NCBI GenBank assembly: GCA_963930775.1
Contig: OZ005699.1
Coordinates: 9,011,501-9,075,500 of the forward strand
Length of the DNA stretch: 64,000 nucleotides
Reading direction: 5' to 3'
DNA from: Cliona cf. orientalis
Lineage: Eukaryota; Porifera; Demospongiae; Clionaida; Clionaidae
In this document: positions 4,600 through 60,026 of the stretch, piece by piece
Position numbering within the stretch: the stretch's first letter is position 1
How the letters are laid out: each line of letters begins with the position of its first letter
Notes under the pieces: model-generated
What the model saw: the letters and a program-made list of their open reading frames with translations, nothing else
What the model was told of the DNA's origin: nothing
Databases searched by the model: none
Position numbers and translations under genes: made by a program

Positions 4600-14753
<10,154 letters not shown>

Positions 14754-17572: not shown

Positions 17573-19231
17573 TAGAAGATGAATCAACTGAATACCCTTT
17601 CTCTCCCAGTATTGTGTTCAACATTCATCAGTGATCTTTCATGTATGTATCTATCTCTCTATCAAGGATAAAAAAATATTTACTATCATTAAAATGAATG
17701 TTGCCTAATAATTTAATTCCCACCAGTTCAATGCTGCACACCTCCTACTTTTCAGTACCCAAAACAGTAAAATTAATTATTATTATTGAAAAACTGAGAG
17801 GTAGTGTACTAGGAGATGAGGCTAAAACATTAAATTTTGCACAAATTTTTAGTGGTCTCACCCCCCAAGTGAATCAGAAATCTAGCGGCTAGCTAAGGTA
17901 CACACCCCTTAAACGGGTTTTTACCTTCAGCAAGATTGAGGTACGTACACATGTCCATCGCACATCCCGCGTACATATGCATACATGCATGTGACATGTA
18001 ATTGCTTCTGTAGAGCAGTCTACGCTAAGACCACCGGAAGTCCATATATTGTACGTGCAATTTAATGTCACGCGCACGTTTGTACTATATGTATGGGAGA
18101 TAATGATATGCACACCACATGGGTAGCCACAAAAATTCTGTCCAAATACGAAGGGCTATAACTTTTGAAACAGAAGAGCACTCGCCTCAACTAAGGTAAG
18201 TACAGATCCAGGAGCTCCTCAGCTTCAACCTGATACCTAACATGATACCATCTACGGCGTGCATCTAGTACGGGTGCTTGACAAAGACAATAATGCCGTT
18301 TGGCTGATGCTATCTTTGAATTCGGGGCAAATCTGTAACACTCAACCAGGCCATGCAATTGTACGCTCAATGTAAATGTAAGTACCAGGCTTACCAACAG
18401 ACAAACGCAAGAGAGAGCTGTTCCAGGTTAGGTCGGTTTTTAGCCACATCATAAACGTCAAATATTTAGTTGATTTCACGGGCCTGAACAGCCCTCCATA
18501 GCGATTTCAAGTTATATAGCCTAGATCTACCTAAACTTTAGCTCCATAACTTGCTACAAATCCATTGACAGCTATAGAGCTGGGACCATGACGGTCCCAT
18601 AGTCCTTCCAGTATGACAACTATTCAAGAACTTGTGTCTGACTCGAACTTTGAATTCGGGGCAAATCTGTAACACTCATGTTGGAACCAAATTTCTTCCA
18701 AAATCTTAAACCATACCATCAGGTCTATCACTGCTCTTCATGCTAAACAAATCCGGAATACCGAATCCAAGATATGAGACTCTGAATATCCAAAAAAGTT
18801 CAGTCTGGCTGCTTTCTCCTGGCATAGGGACACACCCCCTTAAGGGGCGCGCGCCATAGTATACGGTAGTTTACCTTAAAATATACTGATTTCCTCACGT
18901 GGTCAGCCCGCGCCCTGCCCGGGAGATTCCTCGTGGTTCGTTCGATGGTGATCTGAGAGCTGCTCTTACTTTTGTGCGACTTCTGCTACCCACCTGTGGT
19001 AATCTGGTTTATCTAGCTACTGCCCCACCCGTGTTAGCCTTTCCTGCCTTTGTAAGTTTGCCCTAGAATTCCCTTTTTTGGCCTTGTTTACTGTTCCATA
19101 ATTAAGTCCCTAGGCATTTTTTTTACTTAACGACTTCTGTAGCCATCATTTTGTCTTCTAACCCTACCCTAGGCCTTTTTTTTGACTTTTAACATACTTG
19201 CATATCCACCATTTCATGTTCTTTGTAGTCT
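17573..19231. other. 5' flank of the large element; internal repeats, no gene seen
   Basis: Contains two direct copies of TTTGAATTCGGGGCAAATCT (about 18315 and 18652). Two similar words, ACACACCCCTTAA at about 17900 and ACACACCCCCTTAA at about 18828, could mark element ends or TTAA target sites. From about 18950 the sequence turns T-rich; TTCTTTGTAG just before 19232 looks like a splice acceptor for a 5' UTR intron. No coding region was found. The exact border of the element is unknown. Confidence 0.5.
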
Positions 19232-22200
19232 GTGTCCAGCATGGCATATCCAATAATTATTAATCAGCACCCCCCAGTTTTCAGCCCCATTTACAATCCC
19301 TTAGTGTTAGCTCTGTTGGTGTTTGTAGTTGCTTTTAAATGTTACCATTTGTTGTGTGTTTGCTATGTTATTGGTAGCCTGTGTGTCAATATTCTAGGAA
19401 CTAAATACAAATCGATATGTGTTGTTTTCTTCCTTGTGTTTACTTGTTTTGTCCTGTCCACCTGTGTAGTGTTAGTGTTCCTTACACACACATCTCATCC
19501 TTTTGGTCTTGGAGTCATGAATACATCTACATTTCTGTTAGTTTTATTAACCCTATGTCAATACTGCTTACCCATTAAAGGAATATTTTGGTTACTGACC
19601 CTTGTGTCCTGCATTAGCAGTTGTGTGCATGCTGTCATCCATTACTATAGAACAGAATTTGTCACTATTTTCCTTGCCTGGAAGCTTAATTTCAATTTTA
19701 AGTGTTTGGTAGCGACATGTATATGGATATTGATGGGGATTGCTGGTTCTTGTGGTGCTGGATTACCAGTCATCTTAGCACTTCTATATTTTAAGCGAAG
19801 TATGGTAAAATTGCTAGTATTGAAGTATGCCTTTACAATCCCACATATTACTCTGCCACTCAGTGATCAGTCTATACAACAAACAAGCATGGTGCATGAC
19901 AGTAATCCAGAAATTTGTAAATCACAGAACAAAACAAAGCGCCCAAGGAGTATAGGTAAAGAAAATGCATGTCAAGGAGATAATATTCCTCCTCCCAAGC
20001 GTGGTCGTAAGAATAAGAGTATAGATAATGAACATAGGTGTGGGCCTTGCACTGTGTGGCTGCAAACAGGCAGCAATGAAAAATTATCAAAATACCACAA
20101 CATGAACAATGGTAGGGTACGTCATCCAGGAGATAGGTCCGTTGAGTTCAGTATATTCCTTAGCTGTAACGGTGTCCACAATATTACACTTAGGGGTGAT
20201 AGCTGCATGTGTGAAGCTTGCTATAGGGATTGCACGAGGGGAGAGGGTAAGCCTCGTTGGGTGGGCTTATCCAAACAATTGATATGCAAACACTGCTTTC
20301 TTTGTTGCCATGGTCCTAGTGACTGTTCTTGTGAATGCATCACCGATTGGAGTCCCAAACAGCATATAGATGATAGTGAATTCAAGCTATGGACTGACTA
20401 CTTTCAATGTCCAAATCAAATCAATAGCAGTAAAGAGTATGACATCTGTAGAGTTCATAATGCAAAAATACACAAAATAATTAGCACTAGAATTTGTAAA
20501 TTATGTGAGAGCTGTACATCTTCTACTTGGGTGCTTGGAAAGACTTTACTAGATAGCTTAGGATCACTTAAAGAGGAATATGATGTGTTACCAGATGACT
20601 GGATATGTGGGGGATGCTTCACCTCGGCAGTATACCCAAATAACTCAGGCTGTAAAAGTCACAAGTTTGCTAGTGCTAGGGATGAAGCATCAGATTACAC
20701 TCTTACGACACTAGGGGAAGATGGGGCATGTCTGGCAAAGTGCATAATGGACAAGTATAAAGAACTGCTAATTTCTCAATATGATGTGCATGACGTAGCA
20801 GATAGTGAGTACATAAATTACAAAAAAATATTAAAAATAGTTGTTGAGGCAAATGGTTATATGTGCTATAGTCCGTCAAAAAAATCTGGCATAATGTATT
20901 ACAATCCTTCTATACTCAGTGATGAAAAATGTATTTCATTGGTATACAAGATACTCAATAAGAAGAATGATACTGCTAGGGTCCCAGATACAGAACATAT
21001 AAGGAATATGGTAAAACGACAGGCTACCTTGCTTCCAGAGAGTAGTAAATTTGACTATAGAACACTATTTGAGGAGGAAAAGGAATGTAAGTTAGATAAA
21101 TATTTTGACAGGGAATTAATGGGTGTTGTTGACTCAATAACCACTTCAGACTGGAGCAAACATACCAAAACAACTAGTCCAACACATACCCATGAAAGAA
21201 AACTGAAATGTATGATGATATGTGCTATAATGGCCAATAATATGGATCCAAGAAAATGCTTCTTGCAAACTTTAATTGGACTTGCATGCTATGCTCAAGG
21301 GCTTAGAGATAAGGGTATGAAATTACTGAATTCATTTGGAGTTACTAGTAGTATCTTTCATATTAGGCAGCATGGTAGCTACTGGGCAAAGCTTCGGACA
21401 GCAATCAAGGAACTCAATCTAACTGCATTTTGGAGAGCCACTTTTGATAATCTCGACTTTAGAATTAAATTTGCAAAAAAGTTGTCGACTGGAGGCAGTT
21501 TGAAACGAATGCTACACTTACTGACATCACAAATAAGTTTTAGGAGTAGTTCTAGCCAGCAATTTAATGACAATACACAAAATTTAAGCCCTACAGATCT
21601 TAAAGAAAATAATTTTACTCTTGATGATGAAAATGTGGAATGGATAAAATTTGGTAAATGCACCTATAAAGCCAGTGACACTCGTGAGGATACTGATAAG
21701 CCACTCCTAACAAAATTGGAAAAACTCATGCCACATTGGACTTCAGAATGTTCAGATAAGGTAGTGTATGCAACTGTTAATGAGGCACATTCAGGGTCTG
21801 CCGATGATGTAGGTAGTTACTTATTTCAGTTGAGGAAAGATCTGCATATAGGTGAAGATGGTTATCCTAAATATGTCCTTTTGGGTGGTGACCAGCAAAC
21901 ATATGCTATAATGAAAAATTTAAAGAGTAAGTATCGAGATCAATATGACTGGGTATACCCTGTTCCAGGAGACTGGCATATTATGAAAACGGCAGCTGAG
22001 GTAATTAAGTATGTGCTAAATGATGGGGGGTTTAAAGTTCTTGCAGCTAAATGTGGTCATAAGGGGGACATCAGTCAGTGGCAGGACATTCACAATGTAA
22101 TAGTTGCAACATACGAGGCATTGCTTCAATCAGCAGTGGAGGAATACCAAACAGTAAATAAGGATGAATATAAGGACTTTTGGGAATGGGTAAACAAACT

Positions 22201-24790
22201 AAGTACTCCTAGTGATGATCAGGTATGTTGTTTTTGGTCACAAATGCTAATTTATCTGCATGCATATGTGGGATTTTTCTTTGCTATCCGTTCAGGTAAC
22301 TGGCTTTTACGTAATTCATGCTTGAAGGTACTTACGGAATTATTCTTTGCCTATAGTAGGGATAAGTACGAAGTATTGAGCATAAATGCCTTAGCTGATA
22401 GTTACACATACCCAAAACAAGTACTGGATAAGTTCAAGAATGGCGAATGGACGGTTAGTTACAAAGGTAGACCCTATCACAGTTTAGCCTTGGATGAAGC
22501 TCAGGAATGTATAGTAAATAGGAAATTAAAACAAATCACTACTAGGCCTTCTCACTTTCGCATGGTGGATATGGCTGATTTTATGGCATACCTTGACAGA
22601 GTTGTAACGGGGCTAGATTCTCATGTATTCAAACTACAAAAGGAGAAGGTATCCAACAAAAAGAAATGCTGTACACGGAGAAATTTAATTTCTGATCTAC
22701 TTGCAGATAAGCATATATTTGAATTACAAGGTAACAGGACACTGTGTAACATTTTTGTAACTAATCCTCCTACATTGGCAGCTTCTAATATTCAAGATTT
22801 ACTGTGCATTAGACAAATAGGTCATGAACGCATGTTTTCATACATACGGCAACACACATTAATCCCGCCCACTGAATTAAAACAGAAGAGACGGAGACTA
22901 AAACTTAAAACATTTACTAAAACTAGAGATTCCACCAAAAAAATGACAACAAAATTGAATCAAGCTACTTTGCTCCTATCTAGTGCATACAAAAGCTTAC
23001 TAAATCCTACTAAAGGATACAAACAAACGTTCCCTCTCCCGCTAGCCATATGCAACCCCTCCGGTCAGATGCGGACATGCAATAAGAGTTTATTCAAGGA
23101 AGCACTCGAAACGACTTTCCAAAACTCACACATATTTATTCCCGACTGCCCTCTTTTGTCATCCCCTCATGAGCTCATAGTTGACTTTTTATATATGCTA
23201 CACCAACCACCACCCCCACATATTTTGACATTTTCATCCTATGCAAAGTACTTATGGGAGAGAATAGTAATAAAACTGGGAGTACAAAGAGGAGCTAATG
23301 TTATTAGAATAGTAGTAGACAAGCCAGCATACCTACCAAAGCCTAGGGATTTGTTGCATGCAAGTAGATCTGATAAAACTGGAATATTAAGTGTAGATGA
23401 CTGTGACATCAGTGCTGATGGAACGATACCACAATGTAGACAATACCAGCAAATGTTGGCGAATGAAAATTTGAAAAAGAAATTTATTGCTTACGTAATG
23501 AATCAATTTATTAAGTTTGGTACAGATGGCAACCTTTCAATAAACATTATTTTAGATTATGAAGAAATAGAATGTCCTTGTGCCATATATGAAGGCAACA
23601 AAGTAGATTTAGGAATGTTAACAAACAAAAATGGTGAGGCGGATTACAATGTATGGTACCACTGCTTGTCCTCACTTTCTTCTAACATAGTAATACTGGG
23701 TAGTGATACTGACATATGGGTATATGGGATGGCTTTTATGGGTTGTGGGTGGTTAGGCAACAAAACAGTATACGTAGAAAGGACCGTTGGCTCCGAATAT
23801 GTAAGCTTGAATGCCATATTTGAAGCTGTGATGAACCATCCAAAATTAAAAGTAATTCCTTTCCCTTTATTAACTTTATCCACTGTGTACATGTTGACGG
23901 GTGGGGATTACATAAGCAGTTTCTTTAAGACGTCAAAGCAGACTTTCATAAAAGTTCTTATTGAAAACATGGGACATATCTGTGATGGGGAGGCATTTGT
24001 AGATACACAATCTGCAACAGTGATGGGAATAGAGGGGTATGTGGTACATAAAATCAACTTGGATGCGTGGATTAAATTAGTTTGTTCAGTGTACTTGACT
24101 AAACACAAAACCTTATTCAATAGTGAGGCTATTGCTTCATTGCATGCATCCCTAATGTCATCTCCTCTAGCCAATGAAAAGATTCAATTATTAAAGTGGT
24201 TAGCATACGATAAAGTACTTCCCTTAACTAGACTATCTGATTGGCATGATTTCACTAGGAGAGTGTGCTTTTATCATAGTACAGGGAGTAAGGACCATGA
24301 AAGTTTGCTTGTGCCTACACTTGGTGCTCTTAGATATCATATGTTGAGATCTGAGTACGTCCTAAAAACTGTATTTGGTTGTATAAATAATGAACCTATT
24401 AATCCAAGCGAATATGGGTGGAGAGTCAATGAACCAATGATAAGTATTGTATGGGATGATGAGGAAACCATAAAGGCTGTTGTTGCTAGTAAGGGATGTG
24501 GTTGCAAGGGTGCTAAATGTGATGGGTCAACTGCAGGATGTAGGAATTGTTATAGAATGTGTAAGGCTTGTAATTCTAGGTGTAAGTGTAAAGGCAATTG
24601 TAGTAATCCCCATAACAACGGTGGAACGTGTGCAAGATGTGAACCACATGCTGAAAGTGATGACAACGCTACTGATGATGAAGAACAAGCTCCTGAAACG
24701 CTACCACTTGTATCCCGTAATGCTGACACCATAGACTCTGGCACAGACAGTGATGATAGTGACCATGCTGATGCTGATGATGATACATAG
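19232..24790 (+). CDS. Large intronless ORF of a probable DNA transposon: zinc-finger, transposase-like and FEN1-like regions
   Basis: 1852 aa without introns, unlike most neighbouring genes. Residues about 25-210 are strongly hydrophobic (four or five possible membrane spans); a start near residue 219 is also possible. Residues about 225-265 carry a basic tract (KRPRSIGKEN, PPPKRGRKNK). Residues 268-480 hold many CxxC pairs, consistent with zinc binding. Around D887 (GGDQQTY) and D914 (PGDWHIMKT) there is a pattern I associate with DUF6589-type RNase-H-like transposases. D1363 (VVDKP), E1469/D1471 (GEADYN), D1492/D1494 (GSDTDIWVYG) and D1559 (LTGGDY) follow the acidic layout of FEN1/XPG nucleases. 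Residues about 1753-1802 are a CXC/tesmin-like Cys cluster, followed by an acidic tail. A mobile-element origin is inferred from the missing introns and the domain mix. Terminal repeats were not found. Confidence 0.75.
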   Translation: MSSMAYPIIINQHPPVFSPIYNPLVLALLVFVVAFKCYHLLCVCYVIGSLCVNILGTKYKSICVVFFLVFTCFVLSTCVVLVFLTHTSHPFGLGVMNTSTFLLVLLTLCQYCLPIKGIFWLLTLVSCISSCVHAVIHYYRTEFVTIFLAWKLNFNFKCLVATCIWILMGIAGSCGAGLPVILALLYFKRSMVKLLVLKYAFTIPHITLPLSDQSIQQTSMVHDSNPEICKSQNKTKRPRSIGKENACQGDNIPPPKRGRKNKSIDNEHRCGPCTVWLQTGSNEKLSKYHNMNNGRVRHPGDRSVEFSIFLSCNGVHNITLRGDSCMCEACYRDCTRGEGKPRWVGLSKQLICKHCFLCCHGPSDCSCECITDWSPKQHIDDSEFKLWTDYFQCPNQINSSKEYDICRVHNAKIHKIISTRICKLCESCTSSTWVLGKTLLDSLGSLKEEYDVLPDDWICGGCFTSAVYPNNSGCKSHKFASARDEASDYTLTTLGEDGACLAKCIMDKYKELLISQYDVHDVADSEYINYKKILKIVVEANGYMCYSPSKKSGIMYYNPSILSDEKCISLVYKILNKKNDTARVPDTEHIRNMVKRQATLLPESSKFDYRTLFEEEKECKLDKYFDRELMGVVDSITTSDWSKHTKTTSPTHTHERKLKCMMICAIMANNMDPRKCFLQTLIGLACYAQGLRDKGMKLLNSFGVTSSIFHIRQHGSYWAKLRTAIKELNLTAFWRATFDNLDFRIKFAKKLSTGGSLKRMLHLLTSQISFRSSSSQQFNDNTQNLSPTDLKENNFTLDDENVEWIKFGKCTYKASDTREDTDKPLLTKLEKLMPHWTSECSDKVVYATVNEAHSGSADDVGSYLFQLRKDLHIGEDGYPKYVLLGGDQQTYAIMKNLKSKYRDQYDWVYPVPGDWHIMKTAAEVIKYVLNDGGFKVLAAKCGHKGDISQWQDIHNVIVATYEALLQSAVEEYQTVNKDEYKDFWEWVNKLSTPSDDQVCCFWSQMLIYLHAYVGFFFAIRSGNWLLRNSCLKVLTELFFAYSRDKYEVLSINALADSYTYPKQVLDKFKNGEWTVSYKGRPYHSLALDEAQECIVNRKLKQITTRPSHFRMVDMADFMAYLDRVVTGLDSHVFKLQKEKVSNKKKCCTRRNLISDLLADKHIFELQGNRTLCNIFVTNPPTLAASNIQDLLCIRQIGHERMFSYIRQHTLIPPTELKQKRRRLKLKTFTKTRDSTKKMTTKLNQATLLLSSAYKSLLNPTKGYKQTFPLPLAICNPSGQMRTCNKSLFKEALETTFQNSHIFIPDCPLLSSPHELIVDFLYMLHQPPPPHILTFSSYAKYLWERIVIKLGVQRGANVIRIVVDKPAYLPKPRDLLHASRSDKTGILSVDDCDISADGTIPQCRQYQQMLANENLKKKFIAYVMNQFIKFGTDGNLSINIILDYEEIECPCAIYEGNKVDLGMLTNKNGEADYNVWYHCLSSLSSNIVILGSDTDIWVYGMAFMGCGWLGNKTVYVERTVGSEYVSLNAIFEAVMNHPKLKVIPFPLLTLSTVYMLTGGDYISSFFKTSKQTFIKVLIENMGHICDGEAFVDTQSATVMGIEGYVVHKINLDAWIKLVCSVYLTKHKTLFNSEAIASLHASLMSSPLANEKIQLLKWLAYDKVLPLTRLSDWHDFTRRVCFYHSTGSKDHESLLVPTLGALRYHMLRSEYVLKTVFGCINNEPINPSEYGWRVNEPMISIVWDDEETIKAVVASKGCGCKGAKCDGSTAGCRNCYRMCKACNSRCKCKGNCSNPHNNGGTCARCEPHAESDDNATDDEEQAPETLPLVSRNADTIDSGTDSDDSDHADADDDT

Positions 24791-25029
24791 TTATGCTATA
24801 GCACATCTCAAATGATTATTATTGACTGGCCTGATGTCGGGTATGATGCCAAATGAGTTTAAGTGCATGGCAGCCATGGATATAGTCGTGAAAAGTTGGC
24901 TAAAATTTAAAAGTAAACATTTAATTTCACAATACCCTTTATTATGATCACTTGATATGTACAAAACATGTGTAACATTTCTATGCCCAAAGGAGACGGC
25001 CATTCTTGTACACAGTGGCATGGATTTGC

Positions 25030-25206
25030 TGTCATCTATGCGTTTTGTGATTCTTTACATGTGTATACCTACCAACCTATGTGAAACCAAAGCGGGACTA
25101 CAAGTGTTTGGATTTTGCCATCTATGCGTTCTGTGATTCTTTATACATGTATACCTACCAACCTATGTGAAACCAAAAGCGGGACTACAAGTGTTTGGAT
25201 TTTTGC
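25030..25206 (+). repeat. Tandem duplication of about 88 bp
   Basis: Two adjacent near-identical copies beginning CATCTATGCGTT and running through ACCTACCAACCTATGTGAAA to GTGTTTGGATTTT. It lies 240 bp downstream of the large ORF and may be part of the element's 3' end. Confidence 0.85.
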
Positions 25207-25286
25207 TCCATTGTAAACATTGTATATAAAAAGCGGAATAGCAGTAAATTTGAAACTAAAATCAACTCATTTTGAAATAAAAATAA

Positions 25287-25316
25287 GGACTGTCCCTTGA
25301 GAAGAGGGACAGTCTG
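25287..25316. repeat. Short perfect hairpin
   Basis: GACTGTCCCTT and GAGGGACAGTC pair around a short loop. Position downstream of the large ORF suggests a structural or 3'-end role for the element, but that is a guess. Confidence 0.7.
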
Positions 25317-25321
25317 AGAGT

Positions 25322-25480
25322 ATGTTCTTGTACCATGTTGGATGTATTCTTGTAATGCGTTGGATATATTGTTATGAAGCGTTGGATGTGTTCTTGTATA
25401 CGTTGGATGCGTTCTTGTACGCGTTGGATATGTTGTGTTACGTATTTGATGTGTTCTTATACGCGTTCGATGTGTTCCTT
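25322..25480 (+). repeat. Minisatellite of about 24 bp (GCGTTGGATGTGTTCTTGTA)
   Basis: Six or seven degenerate copies. The small open frame across it (repeats of LDVFLYA type) only mirrors the repeat. Confidence 0.85.
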
Positions 25481-25499
25481 TTATACTTCATCAGAAGGG

Positions 25500-26340
25500 A
25501 ATAAAAATCTTACAAAAACATGCACTAAATTATCCCTGGCTCTGTTATGGTATACCCATGGCATAGTCTAATACATTCAAGTGATCAGCACATCAAAGGG
25601 TGTTGGTTTTAATCGTACTTACATAGGAGAAAGCCAACCTAGTAATGACTACATGGCAGCCTGCAACACAAACTTATGATGAGGTGTAAACATAGCTTGT
25701 ATTCACAAGGTCATAGCTCTTCTATATGTATGTATGCACATACTTTTCTATGTTTCATTTTATTTTATGATGTTATGAGAATTTTTTCAAATACTTACCT
25801 ATATATAATATGATGCACAAGTAGCTAATAATTCAACACAAGTCTCATCATCCTCTGTACTCACTGCATGCACACTAGAAACACAGCTAGATGAATGCAT
25901 GACCTTGTGGTCAAGTGTCACACCACCCTGAAACCCCCTAATCGCGTTCGTGGCCGGCCAGGCCGGCTGACCTCATACAAGCGCACGCCGCCACAACGTC
26001 ACACACGGTAATGATTACTCAAACCCACAACATGAATACAATTACCGGTTTGACATTAAATCGTAGGTCTTAGTGTAGACTGAGAGAGCATGTTCCCTGC
26101 ATGTGCCATTGTTCGTGGTATGTGTTCCAGAATTAGCCTAAGTATGCCGTGGCGAGATAATGCTCGAACTTTAGATAGTATTCATAACCACAGGTTTATG
26201 ATAATCATTGTCGCTAATCTATTATGTCAGTCATATGATAGTGTGGTATTCATTTCGCCATACGCTGGGAGGTGTTCTTACACAATGCCGTAGTGCGCGT
26301 GCGCAGTCTTGCTGAGTTGTGAATTTCATTAAAATTCCCA
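25500..26340. other. Intergenic stretch, no gene seen
   Basis: AT-rich apart from a CpG-rich island at about 25940-26000 (GGCCGGCCAGGCCGGC). Short open frames here show no recognisable protein features. The right part is presumably upstream regulatory DNA of the Boule-like gene. Confidence 0.4.
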
Positions 26341-58360: not shown

Positions 58361-58676
58361 AGGGGCGTAGCTTAGTTGTTTCCTTGTTGCCCGGAAACCC
58401 CCCCTGGCAGTCAGATTCAGTATTATCTTAGTATGATTTAGCTATCAGGAAACCCCCTTGGTTTCCAGATTCAATGTGCAGGCACTAAAATCTCCTAAAA
58501 CTTAGCCTAGATCTCCTCCTTTTGTGCTTTTCTCTGCCAAAATATCGAGAATCGAGCAAAATCGCGATCGTTAATTAGACGGCATGGCCGAAAAGTGGGC
58601 GTGGTCTTTAAATTTTTCGCGCGCGCTTCGCGCGCAACTGCTGGAAACCCCCTCAGAAAATCCTGGCTACGCCCCT
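58361..58676. mobile_element. hAT-like MITE upstream of the CARD/DD gene
   Basis: 316 bp with inverted ends AGGGGCGTAGC and GCTACGCCCCT. It is flanked by GCATATCC (58353-58360) and GCATATCT (58677-58684), an 8-bp duplication with one mismatch. Short CAGGGGCG-type ends and 8-bp duplications are typical of hAT elements. It contains CGCGCGCGCTTCGCGCGC and ends 26 bases before the next start codon. Confidence 0.85.
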
Positions 58677-58702
58677 GCATATCTATGGTACATGGTGAAA
58701 AC

Positions 58703-60026
58703 ATGGCTACAACCGTTGAGTCTGATACCTTGGAAGTGTTTCTCCCTCGTTTAGTGACTGCTATCTGTGGTGATGTTCAACGTATAGCGGACCAATGCCT
58801 GTCCGCTGGTCTTATATCGGACTCTGGACGCAAGAAAATACTGGAGTTGAGAGGCAGCAGCGAAGATCAAGCGAGAGCGTTGATCCTGAGTATACTGAAC
58901 AGCACTAAAACTGATAATCGCTGTTTCGAGATATTCTTGGACTGCTTAGATGGAGAATTGCCACGTTTAGTTAAAGAAAAATTATTGCCAAATATAAGAA
59001 AAGATTTGGAAGATAAATATCAGGCCCAACAAGATGGTGTGATATGTAAAGCTATTGAATCTCCAAATTCTCAAAGTCAAGTCACACGATTCATGCAACA
59101 GGGTGATCCTCAAGAGTGCGAACGGCAACAAAGATCTCTATTTGGCAGATACGAACATTCAGTGAAGAATTATGCGTTCGCTTTTAGTGAAAGAGCTCAG
59201 TGTAAAGAATCACTGCAATGTAAGACAGAGGAAAGGGAGAAGTTGAGAGGAGAGCTTACGAGCTTAGGAGGACAAAATTCTGAAACTAAAGAAATTGAGA
59301 CCACCAAAGAAAGATTGTCAGCTTGTGAGACTGAAATGGCTGAACTCAGAGAGAGAATTGAAAAACTGGAGGTAGTCATAGAGGAAGAAGACATGCAAGC
59401 AAGACGAGGAAAGAACATCATAATGGTGGGAACGAAAATGTTTGTGAGGATGACAGAGCATGCTTTCAAGGAGAAAGAAGAGGAATACAAAAGATTATTG
59501 GAAGATGAACTAGAAAAAAGAATGCAAGAAGAAAAAGCTAGAGAACAGCAAGTTGCTCAGGCTCAGGATCAAGTGGAACTGGATGAATGGGAGATAGGTA
59601 AGAGTACATCATATTCATTAGTTTCTAATCAACTGCCCATGCAATGGCACTATTATTATGTTTACAAGGGAGCCGAATACTAGATTCAAACTTGTTCACA
59701 GAGTATCCCCCTAAACTCATAATAATAATAATAACAGTTGGTCTGTATTATTTTACTACATTGCAGAGAGAGAATTAAGGAAACTAGTTGAGTTTAATGA
59801 AGCCTATGGGGAACTGCTTCCCTTTGCTGATGAGTGGAGATCAATTGGAATACTGATGGAAGTGCCACTTGATGCTATCAAAGAGATGGGTGTTGAACAA
59901 ACGGATAGTAGCATATGTTTAGCGGAGGTGCTGACATGGATCCAAAGAAGAGGTTATGAACCTAAACGAAAGAAATTCAATGAGATTATGAAGAAAATCA
60001 AAGCAAAGGTTGAAATGAAACACTAG
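58703..60026 (+). CDS. CARD-like / coiled-coil / death-domain protein
   Basis: Two exons, 58703-59597 and 59767-60026, joined in phase to 384 aa. The start MATTVESDTLEVFL is supported by the paralogue at 63376, which begins the same way; an upstream in-frame ATG exists at 58685. Residues about 1-95 form a helical CARD-like death-fold domain (LVTAICGDVQRIADQCL, GLISDSGRKKILEL). Residues about 150-300 are a charged coiled coil (EREKLRGELTSL, ETEMAELRERIEKLE). Residues about 300-384 are a death domain (FADEWRSIGILMEVPLDAI, LAEVLTWIQRRGYEP). Such proteins assemble signalling platforms in apoptosis and innate immunity. The precise partner is unknown. The first domain call is by pattern only; a DED or another death-fold type is possible. 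Confidence 0.8.

Follow-up and report, generated by a model that had tools for sequence, protein, structure and literature searches.

A complete DNA transposon of probable AcademX type, with a predicted transposase–nuclease fusion, in the sponge Cliona cf. orientalis

A stretch of 64,000 nucleotides of the sponge Cliona cf. orientalis (contig OZ005699.1, positions 9,011,501 to 9,075,500 of assembly GCA_963930775.1; hereafter the window) carries at positions 18016–26082 of the + strand a complete DNA transposon of 8067 bp, bounded by terminal inverted repeats and flanked by a 4-bp target-site duplication. Its long open reading frame (ORF) encodes a protein for which structure models support both a transposase fold and a FEN/XPG/EXO1-type nuclease fold, and the element is very probably an AcademX-type DNA transposon that moves autonomously by cut and paste.

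The element and its reading frame

A search of the 216.8-Mb genome with the DNA around the gene has shown that repeated DNA starts near 18016 and stops near 26082. Since the terminal repeats were not among the longest 25 of the 179 pairs given by an inverted-repeat search, which were mostly CT/GA runs, the ends were taken from these genome repeats. The left terminal inverted repeat, CAGTCTACGCTAAGACC, occupies 18016–18032 on the + strand and is the terminus common to related copies, and its inverted counterpart, CAGTCTACACTAAGACC on the − strand, occupies 26066–26082. AGAG stands immediately outside both ends, at 18012–18015 and 26083–26086. A decayed long copy of about 8.2 kb on C1 (30383132–30391303, loci L036 and L008) ends in termini of this kind, with TCTA on both sides. 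Among 40 whole-genome stretches (L031–L070), 24 short copies of 920–1399 bp have both termini, loci with one end or none being left out and the apparent pairs in L032 and L034 being dropped as internal chance matches. The target-site duplication is exactly 4 bp in 20 of the 24, 3 bp in two and 2 bp in one; the 4-mers of the 20 copies are all different, and a 4-bp match occurs in none of the 24 at any of 16 other offsets. A search for the right end of L002, a cousin on C7, did not find it, and each 801-bp flank of the element matches only itself in the genome, where no empty site was found. The original prediction, made from the letters of the window, had proposed that other copies and their flanks would define the ends and that a single-copy locus, syntenic across sponges like an ordinary gene, would speak against a mobile element; the ends could be mapped together with the 4-bp duplications, and the relatives are scattered over many sites and families.

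The gene is an intact single ORF at 19232–24790 on the + strand (1852 amino acids, stop included), in exact agreement with the predicted coordinates, and the mobile element extends beyond it on both sides. The start codon is GTG, the first start after an in-frame stop at 19226, and the first ATG is codon 4 at 19241. The motifs quoted in the original prediction are all in their expected places (GGDQQTY at residue 885, PGDWH at 912, GEADYN at 1468, GSDTDIW at 1490 and TGGDYIS at 1556), as is the Cys-rich C-terminus. Three homologue searches listed 7, 30 and 12 related proteins, the third scoring the 7995 candidates that had the most words in common with the query. These relatives, a match to Pfam DUF6589 and an excess of changes at third codon positions confirm that the ORF is more than a chance frame. 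When the ORF was scanned against Pfam at E values up to 1, only DUF6589 and a sub-cut-off DUF3278 were listed, and no helicase; the whole ORF matched no solved structure at the sequence level, and none of 45 pattern matches in one scan of viral contigs was confirmed as a viral relative.

A protein search of the genome gave at least 42 matching stretches (25 of 238 candidates scored), 29 of the 42 carrying stops, and the divergent cousins L002 and L005, with open frames, are 35–39% identical. The closest long DNA match to the element is 96% over about 1.1 kb; identity is 97% in a shorter match of 95 bp and 98% in one of 167 bp. The suggestion that an intact ORF may indicate recent activity is thus upheld as to intactness and not as to recent movement. 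Compared with the long copy L036, most substitutions fall at the third codon position in every 100-codon bin from codon 201 to the end, and the indels after codon 200 are multiples of three in 8 of 14 cases in L036 and 9 of 14 in L035, compared with 1 of 10 and 0 of 10, respectively, in codons 62–192. The third-position excess and the in-frame indels therefore indicate that the greater part of the protein was preserved during the time in which the family was mobile.

Predicted transposase and nuclease folds

Because comparison with solved structures gave no credible match at the sequence level, both folds rest on AlphaFold models, built from 26 sequences for the transposase and 18 for the nuclease. 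The model of residues ~626–1134 (21107–22633, + strand), for which 23 of 31 homologues were aligned together with two genome cousins, supports an RNase H-type transposase fold with a helical insertion, similar to those of P-element and hAT transposases; its nearest solved structures are the P element and Hermes. D739, D887 and E1089, assigned by their positions in the model, are likely to form the DDE triad. DUF6589 (PF20231) matches residues 843–1103 with an E value of 2.9e-11 and a score of 43.2 bits against a curated cut-off of 27, and is the sole Pfam domain of the ORF above its cut-off. The ORF is thus a member of a family for which Pfam states no function, and both D887 and E1089, the second and third residues of the modelled triad, lie within the match. 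It is a less expected outcome of the model that the catalytic half of a transposase falls within a domain of "unknown function", and the element thereby links DUF6589 to transposase function. The name DUF6589 was not found in the literature searched. With 102 of 338 candidates scored, the genome contains at least 122 DUF6589 stretches, and none of those listed overlaps the places listed for the protein of this element, so they apparently belong to other lineages.

The FEN/XPG superfamily has seven conserved acidic metal ligands. The model of residues ~1284–1725 (23081–24406, + strand) and its structure matches support an EXO1/FEN1/XPG fold in which each of the seven metal-binding acids is present, the candidates being D1318, D1363, E1469, D1471, D1492, D1494 and D1559, which presumably correspond to the FEN1 metal ligands in FEN1 order. 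All ungapped rows of the alignment retain these acids, in sequences 26–82% identical to that of the window. The 18 sequences remained from a first alignment of 24 rows after removal of P0024, P0028, P0029 and P0031 (0% identity), P0027 (20%) and P0032 (50%). The likeness to EXO1, FEN1 and XPG lies in the fold and the acid set, whereas the domain is only 10–16% identical to the 50 solved chains listed and belongs to a transposase protein instead of a repair enzyme. Two weak matches of the nuclease alignment to solved structures fall on Cys-rich profile positions upstream of the nuclease and were set aside, because these positions come from the full-length rows of the alignment. The original prediction had read the acidic motifs as a FEN1/XPG layout fused to a transposase-like RNase H region, to be abandoned if structure prediction gave neither fold; both were modelled in one protein, with the seven acids in place and DUF6589 above its cut-off in the transposase region.

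Classification and proposed mechanism

The Academ superfamily is said to go back to Kapitonov and Jurka (2010), and its AcademH and AcademX lineages were reportedly defined by Kojima (2020). Academ elements have terminal inverted repeats, and we take the nuclease of AcademX to be of the XPG type. The P and hAT superfamilies produce an 8-bp target-site duplication, and the KDZ (Kyakuja-Dileera-Zisupton) elements have a Pfam domain of their own, which was not listed in Pfam scans of six proteins at E values up to 1. Academ is an established superfamily (PMC4455052; PMC10294476) in which AcademH is the sister lineage of AcademX, and the lengths of the duplications, 3–4 bp in AcademX and 9–10 bp in AcademH, are related to the encoded nuclease and helicase, respectively (PMC10045372); curated bivalve Academ elements have a mean length of 5565 bp (PMC10294476).

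The present element agrees with AcademX in its modelled RNase H-fold DDE transposase, its modelled element-encoded XPG-type nuclease, its terminal inverted repeats, its great length and its 3–4-bp duplication (AGAG in the window, with 4 bp in 20 and 3 bp in two of the 24 short copies). Judged by these features, membership in AcademX is likely, although not proved. Since the combination of transposase and nuclease is that of the published AcademX description, it is not new, AcademX being a known type that has received little study. The element differs from AcademH, which has a helicase and 9–10-bp duplications, in that no helicase was found, and from AcademX in a hydrophobic N-terminus and 31-bp left-end repeats that are not mentioned in the available parts of the AcademX literature. 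It shares with the P-element and Hermes transposases the modelled RNase H fold with a helical insertion domain, and differs from them in its nuclease domain and its 4-bp duplications, the longest exact duplication being at most 4 bp in all 24 copies.

Several points weigh against an autonomous AcademX transposon. The exact 4-bp duplication is missing in four of the 24 copies (3, 3, 2 and 0 bp), and no near-identical full-length copy was found in the genome, so that present activity is unproven. The transposase model found no Foldseek match reaching an E value of 0.001, and the nuclease alignment found no credible match to solved structures at the sequence level. The placement in AcademX was made from the published description of the lineage, and the part played by the nuclease in transposition is one that we infer.

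The placement by description instead of by sequence, together with the nearness of the fold to the P element and Hermes, leaves room for a new superfamily in which a P/hAT-like transposase was fused to a FEN-type nuclease independently of Academ. Weakly in line with this, the listed homologues have PF20231 or no Pfam domain, and none has a helicase, in searches limited by shared words; the search aimed at helicase-bearing AcademH relatives listed seven proteins with PF20231 and five with no Pfam domain. Such an origin is nevertheless unlikely, since the element has both the nuclease and the 3–4-bp duplications stated for AcademX in PMC10045372, and it is less economical to suppose that this pair arose independently a second time. 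It is highly improbable that the nuclease domain is a structural passenger without a catalytic role, as its low identity to the solved chains might suggest, because the seven acids are invariant in the ungapped rows despite the wide range of sequence identity, and third codon positions are the most changed in residues 1301–1700. A domesticated host gene of transposon origin, with which an intact ORF among stop-bearing relatives and flanks unique in the genome would agree, is scarcely credible, since a domesticated gene has no need to keep the ends, whereas the two terminal repeats and the duplication are all preserved here and relatives are dispersed across many places and families.

For an AcademX-type transposon, a division of labour between the DDE site and the fused nuclease is the most likely arrangement. 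The transposase may bind the element ends, using at the left end the two 31-bp repeats that lie about 330 bp from each other, and the Cys clusters may help to bind DNA. The DDE site would then cut the transferred strands and join them to the target at a 4-bp stagger, which the 4-bp target-site duplications show, and the fused nuclease would trim away the non-transferred (5') strand or, at junctions with the donor or the target, 5' flaps. TnsA in Tn7 and the hairpin chemistry in hAT process the non-transferred strand, and by analogy the fused nuclease could fill this role. Short copies of about 939 bp may be moved in trans by the enzyme of this family or a close relative. Since the element is complete, with its ORF intact, its ends and 4-bp duplications mapped and short non-autonomous partners in the genome, the role of the fused nuclease is open to direct testing.

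Left-end repeats, N-terminus and neighbouring features

Two identical 31-bp direct repeats lie at 18314–18344 and 18648–18678 on the + strand, 334 bp apart, and no such repeat is present at the right end. Both are recognisable in 21 of the 24 short copies at spacings of 322–336 bp, without a mismatch in either repeat in 15 of the 21, and a single one is present in the other three (L046, L066 and L068). Among the BLAST matches listed, up to L055, between the short copies and the long element, the parts mainly matched are the outer ~97–120 bp on the left, the outer ~42–54 bp on the right and the surroundings of the repeats. Identity peaks over the repeat blocks (0.84 and 0.82 in L043, 0.74 and 0.72 in L053) and is about at shuffled levels in several bins between them. 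Because identical repeats are kept at a similar spacing in diverged short copies, the two repeats are candidate asymmetric transposase-binding sites. Over the 276 pairs that the 24 short copies form, the median identity is 0.941. The ~939-bp non-autonomous family (L040–L069, on various contigs) reaches a pairwise identity of 0.998, suggesting that it was mobilised fairly recently, and, as judged from this best pair, the movement of certain short copies seems to be more recent than any that can be demonstrated for the long copy.

A membrane-like hydrophobic N-terminus is a less expected part of the element. Residues 1–210 (19232–19861, + strand) contain six 19-residue stretches with a mean hydropathy of at least 1.6, followed by a basic stretch and then the Cys clusters. 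Hydrophobic stretches precede the first Cys cluster in 16 of the 21 proteins having that cluster, P0001 included (11 of 32 proteins without the motif were set aside, and P0033–P0038 stand outside the count), as well as in the cousins L002 and L032. The first 200 codons have no stop, compared with 17 and 10 in the other frames, a result reached in 0 of 20000 Markov simulations; the corresponding figures are 0 compared with 14 and 9 in L002, with 29% T in its N-terminal DNA (0.0002 of simulations), and 0 compared with 9 and 8 in L032 (0.0004). Identity to P0003 is 70/100 in the first bin and 83/100 in bin 101–200, the latter near that in the rest of P0003. A mere T-rich leader is disfavoured by this identity and by the stop-free frame in all three sequences. 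It would nonetheless fit the identity to P0002, which is lowest at the N-terminus (57/94 and 60/100, with later bins from 34/48 to 97/100), the lack of a clear third-position excess in codons 1–200 compared with L036, and the indels in codons 62–192 that are not multiples of three (10 of 10 in L035 and 9 of 10 in L036, compared with 5 of 14 and 6 of 14 in later codons). The frameshifting indels and the low P0002 identity weigh against a strong role of this region. Therefore, the N-terminus appears to be translated in most lineages, and its membrane role is putative and unproven. It is possible, though less likely than not, that the segments are true membrane spans, tethering a DDE transposase–flap nuclease to the endoplasmic reticulum or inner nuclear membrane; transposition would then take place at the periphery of the nucleus, and the fused nuclease would make the second-strand cut. 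A membrane-inserted transposase would be of a type that did not turn up in the open-licence literature searched.

The Cys/His clusters at residues ~270–462 (20039–20617, + strand), defined by sequence motifs, are possibly a zinc-binding and DNA-binding part. The Cys-rich C-terminal cluster at residues 1756–1803 (24497–24640, + strand) has no convincing relative by sequence among solved structures; the single match, to Nup153, is weak, and the cluster resembles the CXC type, an identity that is unproven.

Other ORFs of the window carry animal-type domains, among them collagen, tyrosine kinase and CARD. An ORF with collagen repeats at 5932–8571 is accompanied by long overlapping ORFs on the opposite strand, which are probably repeat-driven, and an ORF at 58595–59683 has a CARD domain with an E value of 2.4e-7.
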